Below are positions 34,696 through 43,446 of a stretch of 64,000 nt of DNA, in pieces. A program made the position numbers and the translations under genes. A model generated the notes under the pieces. The model did not search any database. It worked only from the letters and a program-made list of their open reading frames with translations, and had not been told where the DNA came from. This DNA comes from Herbidospora galbida (GTDB lineage: Bacteria > Actinomycetota > Actinomycetes > Streptosporangiales > Streptosporangiaceae): NCBI RefSeq assembly GCF_005233835.1, contig NZ_SZQA01000013.1, forward strand, positions 62,001-126,000, read 5' to 3'. Numbering within the stretch: the stretch's first letter is position 1; every line of letters starts with the position of its first letter.

Positions 34696-35129
34696 TCAGC
34701 GCGCAGGCGGAGCGCTCGGCCAGAACTGGAAGAGGTAGGATTCCAGCTCTTCATCTGCATCCTCGGGGAAATGGTCCAGCGGCACGAGTACCGTCCGGTG
34801 CCCTCTCACGCTCCAGTTTGCCTTCGGCGGGCCCAACTCGATGGCGGGATTCACCGCGTCAGTCAGCATGTCGTCGATGGCGATGGACCCAGAGCTTACA
34901 TAGAAGCTGGTGGTGATCACTTCTGCGTCGTGGCCGGGCCCTGGGTCGGAAGGCCACACCTCAAAGCGAATACGCTGCCACCAGCCATTCAGGCTCGGCG
35001 CTCCGGTCATTCCAAGAATTGTCATATGACTTCGCATCCGGGTCGTCAGGCCCGCCATGATCCGTGATGGTGAATTCATAGTACTGCACGAATATGGAAT
35101 CTTCTGCGGCTCGGATGATTTCCGGCATT
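34696..35129 (-). pseudogene. Frameshifted hypothetical gene
   Basis: The first half reads in one frame from ATG 35129, which has AAGGA six bases upstream: MPEIIRAAEDSIFVQYYEF, ITDHGGPDDPDAKSYDN, SWNDRSAEPEW. That frame stops soon after. The second half continues in the -1 frame from about 34990: WWQRIRFEVWPSD, AEVITTSFYVSSGSIAIDD, AIELGPPKANWSVRGHR, ending FQFWPSAPPAR. Both halves look coding and join naturally, so the gene has lost one base, or a sequencing error is present. No slippery heptamer is obvious at the junction. I recall similar short proteins in related actinomycetes but cannot name a function. Confidence 0.5.
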
Positions 35130-35629
35130 GAGATCCTTGAGTTTCGTCAGATTCCCGGTTCGGCCGGGCGTGTTGGACAAAAATGGTTCGGGGAATCAGA
35201 GCACGGGTGTTGCCGATCCAACGATCCGCCCGCGCTCGGGCCAGCCGCTCGGCCGCCGGCAGCCGTGCCGGCGACCGGGCACTGTCATGCGGATGGGACA
35301 GATCTTCGGCTAGCCCACCTCCAACTCGGCCTCGGGCTCCCCGGTTACCGCTGCTCGAGCACCTCGAACGGCCGTACTGCCTCGCCCGTCACGGCTAAGT
35401 CCCTCCTAAGCACGTTCCAAGTCAGCCGCCGGAACGGCGAACGGCGTACCTGATCGTGGTCGAGGACGCCGCCGAAGCGGGTCGCGGTCTAAGCGCTCTC
35501 CAAGAAGCGACCAAGTCTCGATTCTTACCGTCTTCACCAGGTGCTCAACCGATCACCGGGCGCCGCCCAGCGGTGCCGATTTCGCAGCGAACAAGAATGC
35601 CGTCCCCGTACGGCCAAGGAGAGACAAGC
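35130..35629. other. Intergenic region upstream of the RiPP operon
   Basis: No complete gene is seen in these 500 bp, and overlapping short frames on both strands lack starts. The RiPP operon promoter should be in the right half. I found no clear SARP-type direct repeats at 11-bp spacing. A minus-strand open frame (AERLARARADRWIGNTR) may be a remnant of an upstream gene. Confidence 0.35.
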
Positions 35630-35791
35630 ATGTCCAAGATCAAGATTGACGACCTGGCGGCCGTCGGCCGTGAGCTGAACGAGGGCGACCTGCGTCTGGT
35701 CAACGGTGGCCACAACCCGGACCTGACCAGCATCGTCATGACCCCGTCGGGCGGCCGCTGGCGCGACCGGGACGACTTCACGGGCGCCTGA
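35630..35791 (+). CDS. RiPP precursor peptide (graspetide-like), double-glycine leader
   Basis: A 53-residue peptide with ATG at 35630 and AAGGAGAG eight bases upstream. The leader MSKIKIDDLAAVGREL-NEGDLRLVNGG ends in Gly26-Gly27, the classic site for a C39 peptidase, and its acidic helix with a final VNGG is typical of such leaders. The 26-residue core has no Cys. It has hydroxyl donors Thr33, Ser34, Thr38 and Ser40, a second Gly-Gly at 41-42, then an acidic/aromatic tail (Trp44, Asp46, Asp48, Asp49, Phe50, Thr51). Donors precede acceptors as in microviridin-type graspetides. The gene is first in a tight operon with an ATP-grasp ligase and a C39 exporter. The precursor role is inferred from context and sequence. 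Confidence 0.75.
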   Translation: MSKIKIDDLAAVGRELNEGDLRLVNGGHNPDLTSIVMTPSGGRWRDRDDFTGA

Positions 35792-35852
35792 TCCGGTGTG
35801 ACGCGCGGGGTGCCGGCCGGTGCCCCGCGCGTCCCGTCCCAGGAGGACTGAA

Positions 35853-36857
35853 ATGCCAAGCGAGATTCTCATCCTGACGGCGGAGGGGGACGCGCACGCC
35901 GAGAAGGTGGCCGCGATCCTGGCCGCCCGCGGCGTCGAGGCCGTGATGTTCGACCCGGCGGACTACCCATCCCGGGCCCGGATCAACGCGGCCTACGGCC
36001 CAGGAACCCAAGTGCGGCGCACACTCCACACGGACGGCCACCCGCTCGACCTCGACGCGCTGACCGCCGTCTGGTTCCGCCGTCCGCAGCCACCCGCCGC
36101 CCATCCGGAGATCACCGACCCCGCGGTTCGCGTCTACGTCGAGGGCGAGTGCTCGGCCTTCACCGCCGACCTGTGGGACCAGCTCGACTGCAGGCACGTC
36201 CCGGCCCGCAGACAGACGATCATGCTCGCGCAGCGCAAGTCATCGCAGCTCGCGCTGGCCGGCCGACTCGGCTTCGACCTGCCCGCGACGCTGGTCACCA
36301 CCGACCCGGACGAGTTCCTCGACTTCTACGACCGGCACAGCGGCCAGATCATCACCAAGCCCTTGCACGACCCCCGGCCCCCGGCGAACGCCGGTGCGGA
36401 GCTGGGCCGGTTCTCGGAGCCCGTGTCCACCCACGACGTGATCCACGCCGACGCGATCCGCCTCGCGCCCGTCATCGTCCAGGAGTACGTCGTCAAACAG
36501 GTGGAGCTCCGGGTCACCGTCGTCGGGCGCGCGGTCTTCGCCGCGGAGATCCACTCCCAGGAGAGCAACCACACCCGGTTCGACTGGCGCCGCTACGACC
36601 TGGGCAGCACCCGCCACGAGCCGCACCGGCTCCCCACGGACGTGGCCCGGCGCTGCGTCGAGATCGTCGAGCGGCTCGGGCTCCGCTACGGCGCGATCGA
36701 CCTGATCCTGACCCCGGACGGGCGCTACGTCTTCCTGGAGGTCAACCCGAGCGGCCAGTGGCTCTGGATCGAGAGCGCGACCGGCCTGCCGATCAGCGAG
36801 GCCCTCTGCGACCTCCTGCTGTACGGCGAGGTCCACGGCGGAAAAGGAGACCGGTGA
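35853..36857 (+). CDS. Graspetide-type ATP-grasp ligase (MvdD-like)
   Basis: A 334-residue ATP-grasp enzyme. The pre-ATP-grasp domain opens with SEILILTAEGDAHAEKVAAI, and the central and C-terminal lobes carry IITKPLHDP, VIVQEYVVKQVELRVTVV, the metal-binding FLEVNPSGQWLWIE, and ATGLPIS. These features match ligases that join Asp/Glu side chains of a RiPP core to Thr/Ser (ester) or Lys (amide). ATG 35853 has AGGAGG at 6-nt spacing, and a longer ORF from 35820 is rejected. It lies 61 nt after the precursor and overlaps the next gene by one base. Confidence 0.87.
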   Translation: MPSEILILTAEGDAHAEKVAAILAARGVEAVMFDPADYPSRARINAAYGPGTQVRRTLHTDGHPLDLDALTAVWFRRPQPPAAHPEITDPAVRVYVEGECSAFTADLWDQLDCRHVPARRQTIMLAQRKSSQLALAGRLGFDLPATLVTTDPDEFLDFYDRHSGQIITKPLHDPRPPANAGAELGRFSEPVSTHDVIHADAIRLAPVIVQEYVVKQVELRVTVVGRAVFAAEIHSQESNHTRFDWRRYDLGSTRHEPHRLPTDVARRCVEIVERLGLRYGAIDLILTPDGRYVFLEVNPSGQWLWIESATGLPISEALCDLLLYGEVHGGKGDR

Positions 36858-37798
36858 TGTTGTCCGACGCGCTCGACACCCTGCGCGACCTGGCGGGGAG
36901 CGACCCCGGCGAGGCGCTGCGAACCCTGCGGGAACGCCATCCGGACGTGCGCTTCCGGCTGCTGCGCCAGCGCGAGGAGTACGACGACTCGCTCCACTAC
37001 GACCTGTTGATCAAGCGGGCGGGAGAGGGCACGATCTCGCTGTCATGGTGCCCGGAATCCGCCCTGCCGTGGCCGTTGCGAGGCGTGCACCGGGCCAGCG
37101 AACTGCTCCTGCTGCGAATCGACGGGGTGGGCGTGACCGTGGCGGAAGCGGTCGCCCGGCTCGACTTCCTGTGGGACGAGGCCCGTCTGATGGATCGGAT
37201 CGTCACCGCCGCCCTGCTCCAGGCGGAGCTGGAGGAATCCCCCGTCGAGCTCACCGACGACGAACTCCAGGAGGCGGTGGACGCCTTCCGCCGGGCCCGC
37301 GGCCTGCTCACCGTCGAGCGGACCCGCGAGTGGATGGATCAGCGCTGCCTCACCGAGGTGGACCTGCGGGAGCTGGTGGCCGGGGAGGCGGCCGTCGCGC
37401 GGGTACGCGAGCGGGTGACGGCCGGCCGGGTCGAACCGTACTTCGCGGAGAATCGGGCGGAGTTCGGCACGGCCCGGATCGCCAGCTGGGGCTTTCCCGA
37501 CGCGGAGTCGGCCCGGCAGGCCGAGCTCGACGACTGCGACGCGGAACTCATGCCGGGCACCCGGCTGGTGATCGAGGACGTGCCGGTGGCCGAGATCGGC
37601 CGGGCGAAGGCCGGGGAGGTGTTCGCGCCCACGCCGAGGTCCCTGGTCAAGGTGATCTCCATCAGCGACGCCGTGCTCGACGCGGGCACCCGCCGCCGCG
37701 TCGAACAGCGGATCTTCGAGGAGTGGCTGGCGGAGCGCCGCCTGGCCGCGAAGATCGAGTGGTTCTGGGGCACCACGGCGCGGACGGGTTCGCTGTGA
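36857..37798 (+). CDS. Parvulin-related peptide maturation protein
   Basis: A 313-residue protein. The N-terminal about 110 residues (LSDALDTLRDLAG; FRLLRQREEYDDSLHYDLLI) are unlike any enzyme I know. The C-terminal part resembles SurA/PpiC foldases: LTDDELQEAVDAFRRARGLL, then VEPYFAENRAEFGTARIASW, and the ending EWLAERRLAAKIEWFWG. I recall an uncharacterised family of putative peptide maturation proteins with a PpiC-like C-terminus in actinobacterial RiPP loci, and this fits. Key parvulin active-site residues cannot be confirmed by eye. The start ATG 36857 overlaps the ATP-grasp stop and has AAAAGGAGA upstream. It may present or fold the precursor for the ligase. Confidence 0.7.
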   Translation: MLSDALDTLRDLAGSDPGEALRTLRERHPDVRFRLLRQREEYDDSLHYDLLIKRAGEGTISLSWCPESALPWPLRGVHRASELLLLRIDGVGVTVAEAVARLDFLWDEARLMDRIVTAALLQAELEESPVELTDDELQEAVDAFRRARGLLTVERTREWMDQRCLTEVDLRELVAGEAAVARVRERVTAGRVEPYFAENRAEFGTARIASWGFPDAESARQAELDDCDAELMPGTRLVIEDVPVAEIGRAKAGEVFAPTPRSLVKVISISDAVLDAGTRRRVEQRIFEEWLAERRLAAKIEWFWGTTARTGSL

Positions 37799-37977
37799 GC
37801 GGCGAGCGCGTCTTCCGTGCCGAAGCGCGCGTCCGGGCGGTGCGGTCACGGCCCGTGGCGCTGGGCGCGACCATGCTCGCGCTGCTGTGGCTGGTGGTCA
37901 TCGGGCTGGTGGCGGCGTTGTCCCTGCTGGTGCTGTTCCTGCTGGCGCGGTCCCACGTCGACGGTGGCCTGAGATGA
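37795..37977 (+). CDS. 60-residue one-helix membrane protein in the RiPP operon
   Basis: A 60-residue protein. A basic N-terminus (VFRAEARVRAVRSRP) is followed by a single long hydrophobic helix (about 21-51) and a short polar tail. The GTG start overlaps the previous stop (GTGA) and its stop overlaps the exporter start (ATGA), so translation is coupled on both sides. The N-terminus resembles the first residues and helix of HlyD-type adaptors that partner C39 exporters, but the periplasmic part is absent. It may be a reduced adaptor or a membrane anchor for the maturation complex. Confidence 0.65.
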   Translation: MSGERVFRAEARVRAVRSRPVALGATMLALLWLVVIGLVAALSLLVLFLLARSHVDGGLR

Positions 37978-40115
37978 GACGAGCCCCCGTGATCCTGCAG
38001 CACGCGGCGACCGAGTGCGGCGCCGCGTGCCTGGCCATGGTGTTGTCCTGCCACGGCCGCCGCACCGCGATCCAAGAGGTCACCGACCAGCTGCAGGTGG
38101 GTCGAGACGGCCTGAGCGCGCTCGCCATCGTGGCCGCCGCCGAACAGTACGGCCTGCGGGCGAAGGCGTTCTCGCTGGAGCCCGCCGATCTGGCCCGGGT
38201 GCCGATGCCGGCCGTGATCCACTGGGAGTTCCGGCACTTCCTCGTGGTCGAGCGGTGGGCCCCCGGCAGGGTGGACGTCATCGACCCGGCCCAGGGCCGC
38301 CGCCGGCTCACCGCCGAGGAGTTCGACGCCGGCTTCACCGGTGTGCTGCTGGCGTTCGAGCCGGCGCCGGGCTTCCGCCGGGCGCGTTCCGGCGCCGCCC
38401 ACGCCTGGCGCCGGGAGTTCCTGCGGACCCTGCTGCTCCGGCGGAAAGGCCTGCTGGCGCAGGTGCTGGCGGCCTCGGCGCTGCTCCAGATCCTCGGCCT
38501 GGGCCTGGCGACGATGTTCCAGCTCGTCGTCGACCGGATCCTGCCGCACGGCGGCGAGCGGCTGCTCACGCTGGCCGGGGTGGCCGTGCTGGCCGCCGCG
38601 GTGACCCAGTTCGCGGTGGCGTACCTGCGCTCGGTGCTGCTGGTCGCGCTGCGGGCCCGCACCGACGGCGAGGTGACCGAGAATCTGGTCTCCCATCTGG
38701 TCGCGCTGCCCTACCGGTATTTCACCACCCGAGGCAAAGGCGACCTGGTGAACCGGTCCGCCAGCGTCGTCTCCCTGCGCGAGACGCTGACCGGACAGGT
38801 CCTCGCGACCCTGCTGGACGGGCCGCTCGCGCTGGTCTTCCTCGTGCTCGTCGTCCTGGCCGACCCGTTCTTCGGCGGCTTCCTGCTGCTGCTCGTCCTG
38901 GTCCAGGCCGCGATCCTGCTCGGCACGGCCCGCCGCGTCGGCGACCTCACCCGGCGCGAGCTGGTCGCCCTGGCCGCCACCCAGAGCCGCCTGCTGGAAG
39001 CCATCGGCGGCATCGAGACCCTCAAGGCGTCCGGCGCCGAGCCGCTGGCGATGAAACGCTGGTCGGAGCAGTTCGCCCTCCAGCTCCACGCTGACGTGCG
39101 CGGCGGCCTGGTCAAAGGACTGGTCGACTCGGCGCTGACCGCGATCCGCTACCTGGCGCCCCTAGGGCTGCTGTGGGCCGGTGCGTGGCGGGTGCTCGAC
39201 GGCTCGATGAGCCTGGGGACGCTGCTCGCGCTCAACTCCGTCGCGGCCGCCGCGCTCACCCCGATCGGCTCGCTGCTGACGGCGTTCCAGAACCTCCAGG
39301 AGGCGGGCGCGCACTTCGACCGGCTGTCCGACATCCTGGCCACCGAGCCGGAGCGGTCCGCCGGTATCGAGGTGCTGCGCCTGCGCGGTGCGATCGAGCT
39401 GCGCAGGGTGAGTTTCCGGCACGACCCGCGCGGCCCGTGGGTGCTCCGCGAGGTCTCCCTGACCGTACGGCCCGGCCAGAAGGTCGCGCTGGTGGGCGCC
39501 TCCGGTTCGGGGAAGACCACGCTCGCCCGGCTGCTGCTGGCCCTGCACACCCCCACCGAGGGCGAGATCCGGTACGACGGCGTCCCCGCGGCCGAGCTCA
39601 ACCGGCGTTCGCTGCGCCGCCAGTTCGGGGTCGTCACCCAGGAGCCGTCCCTGTTCACGGGGACGATCAAGGAGAACATCGCGTTCAACGACCCGGAGGC
39701 CTCGCAGCGGCGGATCGCCGAGGCCGCCGAACTCGCCTGCCTGCACGATGAGATCGTCGCGATGCCGATGGGCTACGAGACGCTTCTGGTCGAAGGCGGC
39801 GGGCTGTCCGGGGGACAGCGTCAGCGGCTCGCTCTCGCCCGTGCGCTGCTGCCACACCCCCGGGTTCTCCTGCTGGACGAGGCCACCAGTCAGCTCGACG
39901 CCGCGACCGAGGCGGAGATCGAGGCCCGCCTGGCCGGTCTGACCCAGACGCGCATCGTCATCGCGCACCGGCTCAGCACCGTCAAGGACGCCGACCTGAT
40001 TCTCGTCATGGACGGGGGGCGGGTGATCGAGCACGGCACGCACGCGGAGCTACTGGCCCGCGAAGGCCGCTACGCCCGCCTTGTCGCAGCCCAGATGGCC
40101 GGCGTCACGACGTGA
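37974..40115 (+). CDS. C39-peptidase ABC exporter for the RiPP
   Basis: A 713-residue peptidase-containing ATP transporter. The N-terminal C39 domain has a complete catalytic set: Gln9, Cys15 (TECGAACLAM), His88 (IHWEFRHFLVV) and Asp104 (DVIDPAQGRR). A six-helix transmembrane domain follows (about 150-440), then a nucleotide-binding domain with Walker A ending in Lys514 (GASGSGKTT), signature LSGGQRQRLALAR and Walker B VLLLDEATSQLD. It should cut the leader after a Gly-Gly and export the core. The start overlaps the small membrane protein by ATGA. Confidence 0.93.
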   Translation: MRRAPVILQHAATECGAACLAMVLSCHGRRTAIQEVTDQLQVGRDGLSALAIVAAAEQYGLRAKAFSLEPADLARVPMPAVIHWEFRHFLVVERWAPGRVDVIDPAQGRRRLTAEEFDAGFTGVLLAFEPAPGFRRARSGAAHAWRREFLRTLLLRRKGLLAQVLAASALLQILGLGLATMFQLVVDRILPHGGERLLTLAGVAVLAAAVTQFAVAYLRSVLLVALRARTDGEVTENLVSHLVALPYRYFTTRGKGDLVNRSASVVSLRETLTGQVLATLLDGPLALVFLVLVVLADPFFGGFLLLLVLVQAAILLGTARRVGDLTRRELVALAATQSRLLEAIGGIETLKASGAEPLAMKRWSEQFALQLHADVRGGLVKGLVDSALTAIRYLAPLGLLWAGAWRVLDGSMSLGTLLALNSVAAAALTPIGSLLTAFQNLQEAGAHFDRLSDILATEPERSAGIEVLRLRGAIELRRVSFRHDPRGPWVLREVSLTVRPGQKVALVGASGSGKTTLARLLLALHTPTEGEIRYDGVPAAELNRRSLRRQFGVVTQEPSLFTGTIKENIAFNDPEASQRRIAEAAELACLHDEIVAMPMGYETLLVEGGGLSGGQRQRLALARALLPHPRVLLLDEATSQLDAATEAEIEARLAGLTQTRIVIAHRLSTVKDADLILVMDGGRVIEHGTHAELLAREGRYARLVAAQMAGVTT

Positions 40116-40140: not shown

Positions 40141-43100
40141 TCAGCTTCGCCGGAGCTGGGCCAGCGCCGTACGAGCCCCCTGCTCCCAGTGCGGAGAACC
40201 CACCTGCCGGGCGACCTCCACCGCCCGGCGGTAATGCCCGGCCGCCGCCTCCGGCCTGCCGAGGAACACCGCGAGATCGCCGAGCGTGTGGGCCACCGGT
40301 CCGAACGTGATCGACGCGGAGTTCAGCCCCGCCATCTCCCCCTCTTCCGGCAGCAGCAGGCGGTAGCACTCCTCAGCCGTCTCCCGGGCCGCCAACGCGA
40401 TCGCGTTCTCCGACCGGGCCGCCAAGTCCAGCAGCCAGGCGTAGTCCCGGCGTGGAAGGTCCGCCGGCCACACGGCCCGGGCCTCCTCCAGGCGGCCGAG
40501 TCCCACGAGCGCGCGGGTGTACAACTCTCCGGTGCCGTCCGGGATCAGCTCGTAGATCGGGGTGATCGCGTCCAGGGCGTCGTCGAAACGCCCGGCCACG
40601 AGGCAGACCACAGACCTGCCCACCGGGCCCATGGGGGCCCACATCGGTGCCCCCATCTCCGTCATCTGGTGGCCCAGCATCGTGTACGCCCGCTCAGACT
40701 GCTCGAATTCTCCCCGGACCAGCAGGTGCAGCGCGTCCAGGAACGCGATGATGCCGAGGGAGTGCGCGAGCTGGCCGCTCGTGGAGTGCTCCGCGGCCTG
40801 GTCGGCGTGGTGCCGGGCGGCCGCCCAGTCGTTGCGGCCGAGCATGACCATGCACAGCGCCATGTGGCCGAGCGTCTGGTAGCCGAGCAGCCCGGCCGAC
40901 GCGGAAGCCCGCAGCAACTCGTGCCCGACCTCCTCCATCTCCTCGCGCCGGCCGGGGCCGTGGCAGGCCCAGTACCGGGCGTTGAGCGCCATGCACATCA
41001 GCTGCGGGTCGCCGAGGCTCCGGGCGATGTCCAACGCCTCGCTGCTCGCCTTCTCCAGGCGGTCGGCGTCGTGCCCCTCGATGAGCTGGCACAGCATGGC
41101 CAGCAGGCGGCAGCGCGGCCCGCCGGCCTCCCCCGGCAGCGCGTCCTCGAGGATGTTCACCAGATCGGGGTCGAGCCTGCGCGCCGGCTGGATGGTCCAG
41201 ATGGTCGGCGCGTCGAACGCCACGACGGCCCGCGCGAGCGCCCGTGGGTCACCGATCCGCCGCGCGGTGGCGATCGCTCTCGCGCGGGCGTCGAGCGACC
41301 GCTCCACGTCACCGGCGTGCGCCAGCGCGGACACCAGGTGGCACAGCAGGTCGAGCCGGACCGCGTCGGACGGGTCGGGGGCGAGATCGAGCGCGCCCAG
41401 CCCACCCTCCAGGAAGCCCGCCGCGTCCCGGTAGGCGTACAGGGCGGACGCCTGGGCCGCCGCCCGGGACGCGTGCTCAGCCGCGGTCAGCGCGGTGGCG
41501 CCGGTCGCGGCGGCGAGCGCGTGGTGCCCGAGCGCTCCGACGTCCCGGGGGCGTACGGCCTCCAGCGCCGTCAGCACCTTCCCGTGAATGCGCGTGCGGC
41601 GCAGCTGGGGAATCTCCTCGTAGAGGGTCTCGCGGACCAGCACGTGCGCGAACCGGACATGCCCTGGCCGGGGCTCGTCCAGCAGCCCCGCCAGCACGCC
41701 CGCCTCCAGCCCGTCCAGCACGGTCTCCTCGTCGGCCCCCGGCATCGCGATCAGCACATCGGCGTCGACCTCCCGGCCGAGCACCGCCGCGTTGCGCAGC
41801 GTCGTCTGGACGGCCCCGGGCAGGCGGGCCACCCGCCGCCGGATCAGATCCCGCACCCCCGGCGGCAGCGCGTTGACGGCCATCGGCCCGTCCACCGCCA
41901 GCAGCCGCGCCGTCTCGCTCACGAACAGCGGGTTGCCTGCCGTACGCTCGCTCACCCGGCGCACCATGGCCTGACTCACTTCCAGGCCGGAGCGTTCCAC
42001 GAGCAGCCGGGCGATCTCATCCGGTCCCAGCCCGCCCAGGGTGAGGTGCTCCACGGTCTGTACGGTGAGCGCGGCCCCCGTCGCCAGCAGGTCGGCGCCG
42101 CCCTCCCCGGGCCGGTGGGTGAGCAGGACGAGAACGGGCGTGCCTGCCAGCCGTACAGCCAGATGGCGCAGGAGCTGGAGGGTCTCCTCATCGGCCCGGT
42201 GGGCGTCCTCCAGCACGATCAGCAGCGGTCCCCGAACGCCTTCCAGATAGTCGCCCACGGCTCTGGCCAGCCAGAACTGGCCGACCGGGGCGGCGTCGTC
42301 GGTCAGCAACGGGGCCAGCCGGGCGGCGGTCTCCGGCAGCGGCGGCGTGGTCGCCGCCAGATGGCGCAGCACCTCGCTCCACGCCCACGCGGGCGGCACG
42401 CCACCCGTCGTCTCGGGACATCGGCCGACGACGGTCTGCCAGTCCCGCGCCGCGAGGTGCCGTACCAGCGCGTCGGCCAGGGTGGTCTTGCCCGAGCCCG
42501 CCTCGCCGCCGAGCCACGCGAGCCGGAACCCGCCCTCGGCGGCCTGGCCGGCCGCGGCCGTGAGGCGGGCCAGCTCTCTGGTCCGGCCGACCATCCCCCG
42601 CGGAGCGGGCGGTTCCAGGCGGACCGGCGGCACCACCAGCGGCGCCAGCTCGGGTTCCGCCACGATCAGGTCGAGGGAGGGGACCTGGGCGAGAATGTCC
42701 GCTTCCAGGCTGCGCAGCGCGGCCCCCGGGTCCACCCCGAGCTGCTCCACCAGCAGCTCCCTGGTGCGGCGCAGGACCGCGAGCGCGTCCCCTTGCCGGC
42801 CGGCGCGGTAGTACGAGAGCGCGAGCAGCCGTACCGCGTTCTCCCGCAACGGGTTGACGGTGACGTGCCGCTCCAGCTCGGGGACCGCCTCGGCGTGGCG
42901 GCCCAGCGCCAGGCACGCCTCGGCGCGGTACTCGACGGCGACCGTCCGTAACTCCTGGAGGTGCACCACCTCCGGCACGGCCCACTCCTGGTCGGCGAAC
43001 TCCGCGTACGCCTCGCCCGTCCACAGGGACAGCGCCTCCTCGACCGTGTCGAGGGCGTCGGCGGCCATGCCCCTGGCGAGGAGACCGGCCGCGGTGTCGA

Positions 43101-43446
43101 CCAGCCGGGGGAACCGCCAGGCGTCCACGTCGTCGGGGTCGAGCCGGAGCCGATACCCGGGCGGTGCGCTCACCAGCACGTTCGCGGCTGCCCGCGGCGC
43201 CCGGCCCGGCTCCAGGATCCGCCGCAGGTTCGAGACGTAGACCTGCAACGCACCGAGCGCCTTCGGCGGCGGCTGCCCCTTCCACAGGTCGTCGATGAAT
43301 CGGTCGGTGGACACGATGTGCCCCTGCGCGCACACCAGCCGCGCCATCACCGCCCGGTGGAGCGTCGTGCCGATCTCGACCGTACGGCCTGCGACTTCCG
43401 CGCCTATGGATCCCAGCACATGTACCCGCACCATGACGGGAAGCAT
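40141..43446 (-). CDS. SARP-type transcriptional activator with ATPase domain (AfsR-like)
   Basis: A 1101-residue regulator. An OmpR-like DNA-binding domain (VRVHVLGSIGAEVAGRTVEI; YVSNLRRILEPG) and a BTAD domain (about 95-250) are followed by an AAA/NACHT-like ATPase with Walker A GGEAGSGKTTLAD and Walker B-like LLIVLEDAHRAD. A long C-terminal helical TPR-like region of about 500 residues completes it. No C-terminal LuxR HTH is present, unlike LAL regulators. It is convergent with the RiPP exporter with only 25 nt between stops. SARPs usually activate neighbouring secondary metabolite genes, so control of the RiPP operon is likely but unproven. The start may be 43446 or the in-frame ATG at 43434. 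Confidence 0.85.
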   Translation of the reverse strand: MLPVMVRVHVLGSIGAEVAGRTVEIGTTLHRAVMARLVCAQGHIVSTDRFIDDLWKGQPPPKALGALQVYVSNLRRILEPGRAPRAAANVLVSAPPGYRLRLDPDDVDAWRFPRLVDTAAGLLARGMAADALDTVEEALSLWTGEAYAEFADQEWAVPEVVHLQELRTVAVEYRAEACLALGRHAEAVPELERHVTVNPLRENAVRLLALSYYRAGRQGDALAVLRRTRELLVEQLGVDPGAALRSLEADILAQVPSLDLIVAEPELAPLVVPPVRLEPPAPRGMVGRTRELARLTAAAGQAAEGGFRLAWLGGEAGSGKTTLADALVRHLAARDWQTVVGRCPETTGGVPPAWAWSEVLRHLAATTPPLPETAARLAPLLTDDAAPVGQFWLARAVGDYLEGVRGPLLIVLEDAHRADEETLQLLRHLAVRLAGTPVLVLLTHRPGEGGADLLATGAALTVQTVEHLTLGGLGPDEIARLLVERSGLEVSQAMVRRVSERTAGNPLFVSETARLLAVDGPMAVNALPPGVRDLIRRRVARLPGAVQTTLRNAAVLGREVDADVLIAMPGADEETVLDGLEAGVLAGLLDEPRPGHVRFAHVLVRETLYEEIPQLRRTRIHGKVLTALEAVRPRDVGALGHHALAAATGATALTAAEHASRAAAQASALYAYRDAAGFLEGGLGALDLAPDPSDAVRLDLLCHLVSALAHAGDVERSLDARARAIATARRIGDPRALARAVVAFDAPTIWTIQPARRLDPDLVNILEDALPGEAGGPRCRLLAMLCQLIEGHDADRLEKASSEALDIARSLGDPQLMCMALNARYWACHGPGRREEMEEVGHELLRASASAGLLGYQTLGHMALCMVMLGRNDWAAARHHADQAAEHSTSGQLAHSLGIIAFLDALHLLVRGEFEQSERAYTMLGHQMTEMGAPMWAPMGPVGRSVVCLVAGRFDDALDAITPIYELIPDGTGELYTRALVGLGRLEEARAVWPADLPRRDYAWLLDLAARSENAIALAARETAEECYRLLLPEEGEMAGLNSASITFGPVAHTLGDLAVFLGRPEAAAGHYRRAVEVARQVGSPHWEQGARTALAQLRRS

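Follow-up and report, generated by a model that had tools for sequence, protein, structure and literature searches.

The closest described relative of the gene cluster analysed here is that of rosaritide, a group 21 graspetide of Micromonospora rosaria (PMC13097080, March 2026; this paper and PMC8939145 are cited from the parts of their text available to us). The mir cluster encodes the precursor MirA, the synthetase MirB (TIGR04187), the partner protein MirC (TIGR04500) and MirD (TIGR03796), a peptidase-containing ATP-binding cassette (ABC) transporter (PCAT). MirA is dehydrated up to three times, for which MirB and MirC are both needed: the mass of the precursor is unchanged by the synthetase without the partner, and MirB co-purifies with MirC. 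The esters formed are Ser8–Asp22, Ser9–Asp26 and Thr11–Asp24. MirC has a SurA-like part and a C-domain without similarity to the peptidyl-prolyl isomerase (PPIase) domain of Cj1289; the truncations described remove the whole N-domain or the whole C-domain, and no others (PMC13097080). TIGR04500 also appears as cluster 145, a putative isomerase found mostly in complex actinobacterial loci (PMC8939145). Nothing on TIGR04500 beyond these two papers was found in the literature searched, in which a single article contains the word rosaritide. In this work we analysed 64,000 nucleotides of Herbidospora galbida (assembly GCF_005233835.1, 8.3 Mb; contig NZ_SZQA01000013.1, positions 62,001 to 126,000), hereafter the window, which carry at 35630–40115 a five-gene cluster that we assign to group 21. 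Three of the features described below are absent from the available text of PMC13097080: a small membrane protein that may be a reduced adaptor ('mini adaptor'), partners that naturally lack the parvulin-position domain, and a shifted core with Val at the third donor position.

Assignment of the cluster to group 21

The + strand encodes all five genes. A precursor of 53 amino acids (35630..35791) is followed by a MirB-like ATP-grasp graspetide synthetase (334 amino acids, 35853..36857), a MirC-like partner (313 amino acids, 36857..37798), a membrane protein of 60 amino acids with a GTG start (37795..37977) and a MirD-like peptidase-containing ABC exporter (713 amino acids, 37974..40115). Read from the sequence, the synthetase and partner genes overlap by 1 nucleotide (TGATG), the partner and 60-residue protein genes by 4 (GTGA), and the 60-residue protein and exporter genes by 4 (ATGA). 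A first-pass annotation of the window, made from the sequence alone, had described five genes in one direction, four of them joined by start/stop overlaps, and had proposed a graspetide, that is, a ribosomally synthesized and post-translationally modified peptide (RiPP), with a Cys-free double-glycine precursor and a C39 exporter. This description holds: the arrangement is as stated, Gly-Gly occupies residues 26–27 of the precursor, and the class is borne out by the family matches and by the solved relatives of the ligase. Its suggestion that the system is undescribed does not stand, since the same four families have been characterised together as group 21 (PMC13097080).

We make the assignment to group 21, as a known kind with variations, with high confidence. 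A TIGR04500 partner adjoining the synthetase (306.8 bits, curated cut-off 180) and an exporter of the PCAT/NHLM type, the features by which we recognise the group, are both present. Eight rosaritide-like clusters were found among 160 genomes of one genus, and precursors were read for six of them (those of L258 and L259 were not found by the patterns used). The precursor of one, L262 (MKRKPVQIDTIPADGVELADDQLATMLGG-LPRNGAGSSKTIDDIPGGGRPDTDSDF), fits the residues S8, S9, T11, D13, D14, I15, P16, R20, P21, D22, T23, D24, S25 and D26 of PMC13097080, the tryptic cut after residue 3 that leaves 24 residues, and the core length; D12A/D13A, which occurs in one sentence of that paper, was taken as a slip for D13/D14. 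Because its precursor agrees with all the core residues named in the available text, L262 was taken to be the rosaritide cluster itself or a close copy, and it is very probably the published cluster. The window proteins are 45.8% (synthetase, 279 bits), 39.4% (partner) and 41.8% (exporter) identical to those of L262. With the L262 synthetase standing for MirB, the alignment score of the synthetases, by our own calculation from the 279 bits, is 78.9, compared with a threshold of 70 in the network of PMC13097080.

The precursor consists of a leader (residues 1–27) that ends in LRLVNGG and a core of 26 residues without Cys (HNPDLTSIVMTPSGGRWRDRDDFTGA). The first-pass annotation could not match this core to any known graspetide class; it aligns, however, with cores of the rosaritide class. 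In an alignment of the window core (TSIVMTPSGGRWRDRDDF) with 13 others, among them those of Acrocarpospora (TSIVMTPDGRRWRDRDDF), Microbispora (e.g. SSHVITPDGSVDAKDLDF), Rhodococcus (SSKVIDVVDGWTGTDADF) and L262 (SSKTIDDIPGGGRPDTDSDF), all 14 carry an early [TS]S and an Asp-Phe that is terminal or nearly so. S8 and S9 of rosaritide correspond to T6 and S7 of the window, the donor T11 to V9, and D26 to D22, while D19 and D21 are offset from rosaritide D22 and D24 by one column each, towards the C-terminus. If a third ring is formed, its donor would have to be T11 or S13 (or T24); as the S13 column is Asp in Acrocarpospora and in six Microbispora-clade sequences, T11 is the better guess for the third donor. 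Elsewhere, the loci L063 to L121 have similar leaders and extremely variable cores far outside the rosaritide pattern (e.g. AKSQVITIHGNHSHTSGDSN, QAPEFDRSGCYADNMCKYDDISL, RWTISWYIGGKPAEWENN), and five loci (L084, L226, L113, L079 and L080) have two or three leader-like precursor frames in tandem 5′ of one ligase, with differing cores.

The closest solved relatives of the ligase are AMdnB (aligned over residues 5–323), MdnB, MdnC and CdnC, and no clustering with non-peptide ATP-grasp enzymes, the outcome that according to the first-pass annotation would speak against its proposal, was seen in this search. K129, K169, D244, R246, E296 and N298 are invariant in an alignment of 23 sequences, and we read these columns as ATP-site and DFR-type positions; the ligase has DWR (with D244 and R246) where PMC13097080 names a DFR motif. 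Counterparts in Acrocarpospora catenulata are about 84–86% identical for the ligase (84.1% in the comparison of nonsynonymous with synonymous substitution rates, dN/dS, which gave 0.31) and 90.6% for the precursor (dN/dS 0.38). Six other genomes of the window's genus were sampled and none has a ligase near the level of that of Acrocarpospora (best G097, 44%), so that the distribution of the cluster within the genus is patchy; a second ligase was not found in the window's own genome. Identity as an S6-type ligase was considered and rejected, the RimK-type matches being far weaker than those to graspetide synthetases.

Ligase and partner occur together in several phyla. Named genomes were scanned with the ligase alignment, and among the best 80 of 213 relatives 78 have, on the strand of the ligase gene, a partner-type frame that overlaps this gene or follows it; the pairing spans Rhodococcus, Nannocystis, Cyanobacteria, Acidobacteriota and Thermomicrobiales. 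Matches to TIGR04500 above its cut-off were present in 68 of 297 genomes sampled from the order and in 2 of 346 from the phylum, the window's own included. Sixty regions, a subset of all matches, were fetched for comparison, 59 chosen from ligase and partner matches and one for an orphan copy. No relative of the partner was found in the viral contigs scanned with it. Two ligases from metagenome-assembled genomes of Blastocatellia (L240) and Anaerolineales (L243), 41–42% identical, have no detectable partner gene and are candidates for partner-independent enzymes.

Several points weigh against the assignment to group 21. Family matches fall below their cut-offs for the ligase (TIGR04187, 247.3 bits against 350), for the exporter (TIGR03796, its best model, 598.9 against 853.3) and for the precursor (TIGR04497, 20.9 against 32). 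The formula behind the alignment score of 78.9 is one that we presume to apply, and it is from its precursor that L262 would belong to M. rosaria, and to the genus Micromonospora. The 14 aligned cores were hand-picked. As the window keeps two of the three donor columns of rosaritide and only one of the three acceptor columns, its ring pattern could differ, and many precursors adjoining TIGR04500 genes carry quite different cores. Finally, the figure of 78 of 80 is biased upward, because the query alignment was built from partner-bearing loci.

The TIGR04500 partner and its parvulin-position domain

The AlphaFold model of the partner (mean predicted local distance difference test score, pLDDT, 85.2) has its best Foldseek matches with LIC12922, SurA, Cj1289 and PrsA, 20 matches being at E 0.001 or better. 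On our reading it comprises an N-domain (about residues 1–95), a SurA-like core (about 110–200 and 278–305) and, inserted in the latter, a domain at the parvulin position (about 205–272). The gene product had been annotated as parvulin-like; the Foldseek matches and the description of MirC (PMC13097080, available text) point away from an isomerase and towards a chaperone partner of the SurA type.

We compared 111 distinct partner sequences, 110 from clusters and one orphan copy (L107), identical last 200 residues being counted once; the working alignments comprised 35 chosen sequences (A1) and 23 (A2). The stretch matching window residues 206–268 is wholly absent in two partners, L062 and L229, which retain most of their remaining sequence; the eight rosaritide-like partners have 56% of this stretch. 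L062 is from Acrocarpospora, the nearest relative of the window, and its precursor and ligase look constrained. L229 is from Paractinoplanes, and its partner is also only partly covered (0.68) over residues 278–305. A frameshift in the short Acrocarpospora gene was considered and rejected, as the reading frame is continuous and the stretch is simply missing; a sequencing or assembly error could still lie behind the loss in either case. Should the L062 and L229 clusters be functional, the partner can dispense with its parvulin-position domain and would be a chaperone or docking protein. Short partner genes are those of L062, L099, L115 and L118.

A second TIGR04500-like stretch, perhaps a relic of another cluster, is present in the window's genome (L107:6655-7350, − strand; G000:C73:12663-13364; model positions 84–339), next to what we take to be 2-oxo-acid dehydrogenase genes. 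Similar stretches below the cut-off occur in six genomes of the same genus.

The exporter and the small membrane protein

The exporter has C39 (Peptidase_C39, 116.6 bits), membrane (ABC_membrane) and ATPase (ABC_tran) domains in Pfam, and aligns over residues 7–703 with the solved bacteriocin transporter 4ry2 (362.6 bits). Between partner and exporter, the 60-residue protein has an N-terminal VFRAEA motif followed by one transmembrane helix. The exporter lies 3′ of the partner in 35 loci (the window and 34 that were fetched): 24 of these have a one-helix protein with the motif [FYW]R.[EKQRA][AST], two a one-helix protein in which the motif is altered (L062) or missing (L099), four a longer protein at the same place (L085, L104, L110 and L118) and five no such protein (L097, L115, L116, L120 and L121). 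It is also absent from all eight rosaritide-like clusters, where partner and exporter are 15–54 bp apart, and from all four Rhodococcus loci. In 13 further loci the exporter is 5′ of the precursor (L180, L184, L188, L189, L192, L193, L198, L202, L208, L216, L225, L226 and L234); no adaptor was found there, the upstream flank of the exporter being covered.

Long forms with the same start and place occur in Calothrix, Mastigocoleus, Chloracidobacterium, a Thermomicrobiales bacterium, Sphaerisporangium and Planotetraspora, and the short form of L101 is 76% identical to the long form of L239 over 51 amino acids. Scored with a model made from seven long forms only, all 23 short forms other than that of the window exceed every one of 200 shuffles of their own sequence; the window protein scores 8.2 bits, which 2 of 200 shuffles reach, and for L062 the number is 11 of 200. 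A model made without these two gives 4 of 1000 shuffles (window) and 2 of 1000 (L062) that reach the score. As shuffles reach their scores, the window and L062 copies are the weakest members of the family.

Origin of the small membrane protein

The long forms of the family are likely to be of adaptor origin. The long-form AlphaFold model (pLDDT 72.3, built from nine sequences and of moderate quality) shows a helix, then a membrane helix, and an outer part rich in beta strands. Nothing matched it at E 0.001 in Foldseek, the top match being a flavin-reductase domain (E 0.052); the 50 matches listed include 10 flavin-reductase domains and 20 membrane-fusion proteins (best E 0.12), namely MacA and a chimera, BesA, EmrA and Spr0693, identified by title or, for some, by presumed identity. 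NHLM HlyD N-termini from genomes of the class, presumably Streptomyces, such as FRQQALAKL...PVRFARPQGWLVL, resemble FREEALRRH...PLVIRGPSFLVLW. When profiles of the short forms and of NHLM HlyD N-termini were compared, the signal was weak and no more than suggestive (P 0.0068, probability 5.6%), and for this reason the case for an adaptor is built on the long forms. The motif and one membrane helix beside the exporter, by which we would recognise an adaptor anchor, are found, weakly so in the window. No adaptor family model matched the window protein or five other short forms in NCBIfam, or the window protein in Pfam, and neither database gave a family name to the four long forms tested; such matches as there were are weak and to unrelated models. 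An NHLM HlyD in the window's genome was sought and rejected: four low-scoring matches all lie under the cut-off, and the best (L152) was read as frame noise.

The exporter tree places these proteins in a phylogenetic frame. It has 64 rows, of which 26 have no small protein, 29 a short form and 9 a long form; named loci that duplicate numbered ones and exporter pieces of 550 amino acids or less were dropped. One starred clade of 35 contains all 29 short forms, five long forms and one exporter without either (L244), and the other four long forms (Cyanobacteria, Acidobacteriota and Thermomicrobiota) make a starred group. Long forms stand at two places among the short ones, and the three states require 5 changes, against a mean of 27.3 for shuffled states. 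Ten of the exporters scored as having none begin at the edge of their stretch (L070, L074, L079, L080, L082–L084, L087, L090 and L095), and none of these is in the clade of 35. Six edge-cut rows are in the tree (L070, L080, L082, L083, L087 and L095); L188, L202, L225 and L208 were taken as the same places as L082, L083, L080 and L095, respectively, and their flanks show no small protein, while the upstream flank of L070 and L087 was unseen. The pattern agrees with an outer part that was lost more than once while the anchor stayed, and a regain is conceivable. As the protein is a marker of one exporter clade and its long forms are weakly adaptor-like, the 60-residue protein has the look of an adaptor of which only the anchor is left.

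The words 'adaptor' and 'fusion protein' are absent from the main text of PMC13097080 in a word search, and no title found in the literature searched on adaptors and graspetides describes the small protein; supplements were outside this search, so that it may have been mentioned before. The available text of PMC8939145 names two clusters, 18 and 40, that consist of uncharacterised membrane proteins, cluster 18 occurring in thuringinin loci.

Neighbouring sequences

Downstream of the exporter and convergent with it lies a gene for a regulator of 1101 amino acids (40141..43446, − strand) of an AAA type and, as we presume, of the SARP family, which is possibly linked to the cluster. A regulator at the same position in Acrocarpospora (L168) is 84% identical over 973 amino acids, partial homologues (about 250 amino acids, 36–48%) lie within the fetched flanks of L174, L176, L178 and L186, and 9 of the 14 loci examined have no match. 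No promoter-like site was found in a scan of 35100–36000. Another RiPP class was considered and rejected, as no lanthipeptide- or thiopeptide-type enzyme was matched when the five cluster proteins, neighbours unscanned, were run against NCBIfam and Pfam.

Discussion

Gene content, homology, co-conservation and the predicted fold of the partner, as established here, allow the ring pattern, cleavage, export and role of the 60-residue protein in the window to be inferred along the following lines. Through its leader the precursor would be recruited by the synthetase in complex with its chaperone-like partner, the latter being presumably cytoplasmic. The synthetase would phosphorylate Asp residues towards the C-terminus of the core on their side chains, and attack by Thr and Ser would then give two or three esters, our best guess for the rings being T6–D19 and S7–D22, plus T11–D21 if there is a third, with a mass change of −36 to −54 Da. 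Cleavage after Gly27 would be the task of the C39 domain, and the ABC part of the exporter would export the 26-residue core, while the 60-residue protein may still be docked on the exporter as the membrane anchor left over from an adaptor of the HlyD/MacA type. For rosaritide it was demonstrated that three esters form only with synthetase and partner together (PMC13097080). Co-expression of precursor and ligase, which the first-pass annotation had proposed as the test of its model, would probably give a false negative, because rosaritide needs the partner too.

Other readings of the two enzymes have to be set against this scheme. The ligase could act on another substrate, for example a small molecule or a ribosomal protein, and RimK-type matches do exist (TIGR00768, E 3.9e-16); the E value of 4.4e-48 to AMdnB compared with about 2e-5 to RimK-type proteins, and the conserved precursor directly 5′ of the ligase, make this most improbable. 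The PpiC-related name of TIGR04500 and the prolines at positions 3 and 12 of the window core would suit a partner that is a working prolyl isomerase and sets the proline geometry of the product. This is very unlikely, given that the predicted fold is that of SurA-type chaperones, that no parvulin domain is among the Pfam matches at E 1 and no solved chain matches in sequence at E 1, that the parvulin-position domain is entirely gone from two of the 111 partners, and that in rosaritide Pro16 and Pro21 are both trans and the MirC domain is unlike a PPIase (PMC13097080, available text). A distant origin from an isomerase-bearing chaperone is likely, because the matching PrsA, SurA and Cj1289 have parvulin domains.

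The 60-residue protein, which the first-pass annotation had listed as a mini membrane protein, is present as a gene and is the least certain of the five. dN/dS was calculated for the precursor, the ligase and the small protein, the exporter and partner being left out, and the window and Acrocarpospora copies of the small protein, 50.9% identical, give 1.4, compared with the low values of precursor and ligase cited above, which counts against a functional adaptor remnant and suggests weak sequence constraint. It may thus be a vestige whose frame only couples translation of the exporter to that of the partner through the two 4-nucleotide overlaps, a possibility that we find somewhat doubtful: ratios of 0.39 to 1.33 in 15 Microbispora pairs, the altered or missing motif in L062 and L099 and the clusters that do without the gene, the eight rosaritide-like ones included, are in its favour, whereas the retention of a short or long form in 34 of the 35 rows of one exporter clade, the 23 short forms that surpass all their shuffles and a ratio of 0.42 between the window and Microbispora L063 (with dS near saturation) are not. 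In bacteriocin clusters a small membrane protein often serves immunity, and the failure of any adaptor or other family model in NCBIfam or Pfam to recognise the 60-residue protein would agree with a protein that has nothing to do with adaptors and confers self-immunity or resistance to the product. We regard this as unlikely in view of the long forms that share its N-terminus and place (the pair L101 and L239 among them), of an exporter clade that carries the short form across several unrelated core types, and of the four test bacteria that truncated rosaritide did not inhibit (PMC13097080, available text). Somewhat less probable than not is the reading of the 60-residue protein as an end point of repeated adaptor reduction, in which the exporter of Streptosporangiaceae, having shed the outer adaptor part that spans a periplasm, would still need the motif and helix, for example for C39/ABC gating or peptide loading, and which together with the loss of the partner domain would amount to a minimal rosaritide-type machine.

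With these results the cluster moves from an unknown system to a variant of the partner-dependent graspetides. Whether the parvulin-position domain matters is a question posed by the natural Acrocarpospora partner, which lacks it, and a core that has Val at the third donor position raises that of the number of rings closed by the enzyme. A genuine mini adaptor would show what part of an adaptor is still required by a peptide exporter in cells that lack an outer membrane, and one-helix adaptors would then add to RiPP export in single-membrane bacteria a component not described before.

Compared with known systems, the window shares its enzyme superfamily with the microviridin synthetases MdnB and MdnC, and DWR is also found in MdnB and AMdnB, whereas the microviridin cores differ from that of the window. 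We know of no TIGR04500 partner described for MdnB or MdnC. The C-terminal part of the partner has the same predicted fold as the chaperones SurA, Cj1289 and PrsA, from which it differs by an extra N-domain and by a parvulin-position domain that is reduced or absent in some members. HlyD/MacA adaptors, including NHLM HlyD (TIGR03794), have an FR.xAL N-terminal motif, a Pro/hydrophobic stretch and one helix, as does the family of the 60-residue protein; unlike them, the window form has no outer beta-barrel, lipoyl or hairpin part, the gene ending right after the helix. With respect to rosaritide, the window has the extra 60-residue membrane protein, a core of 26 instead of 27 residues with Val for the donor Thr11 and two Asp shifted by one column, and a Thr-Gly-Ala (TGA) tail after the final Asp-Phe. 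Apart from the mini adaptor, the domain loss and the shifted core, the cluster is an ordinary one for a specialist who knows PMC13097080 (available text): it has the same four families as the rosaritide cluster, in the same gene order in L262 as in the window, and a core built on the same [TS]S...DF plan.

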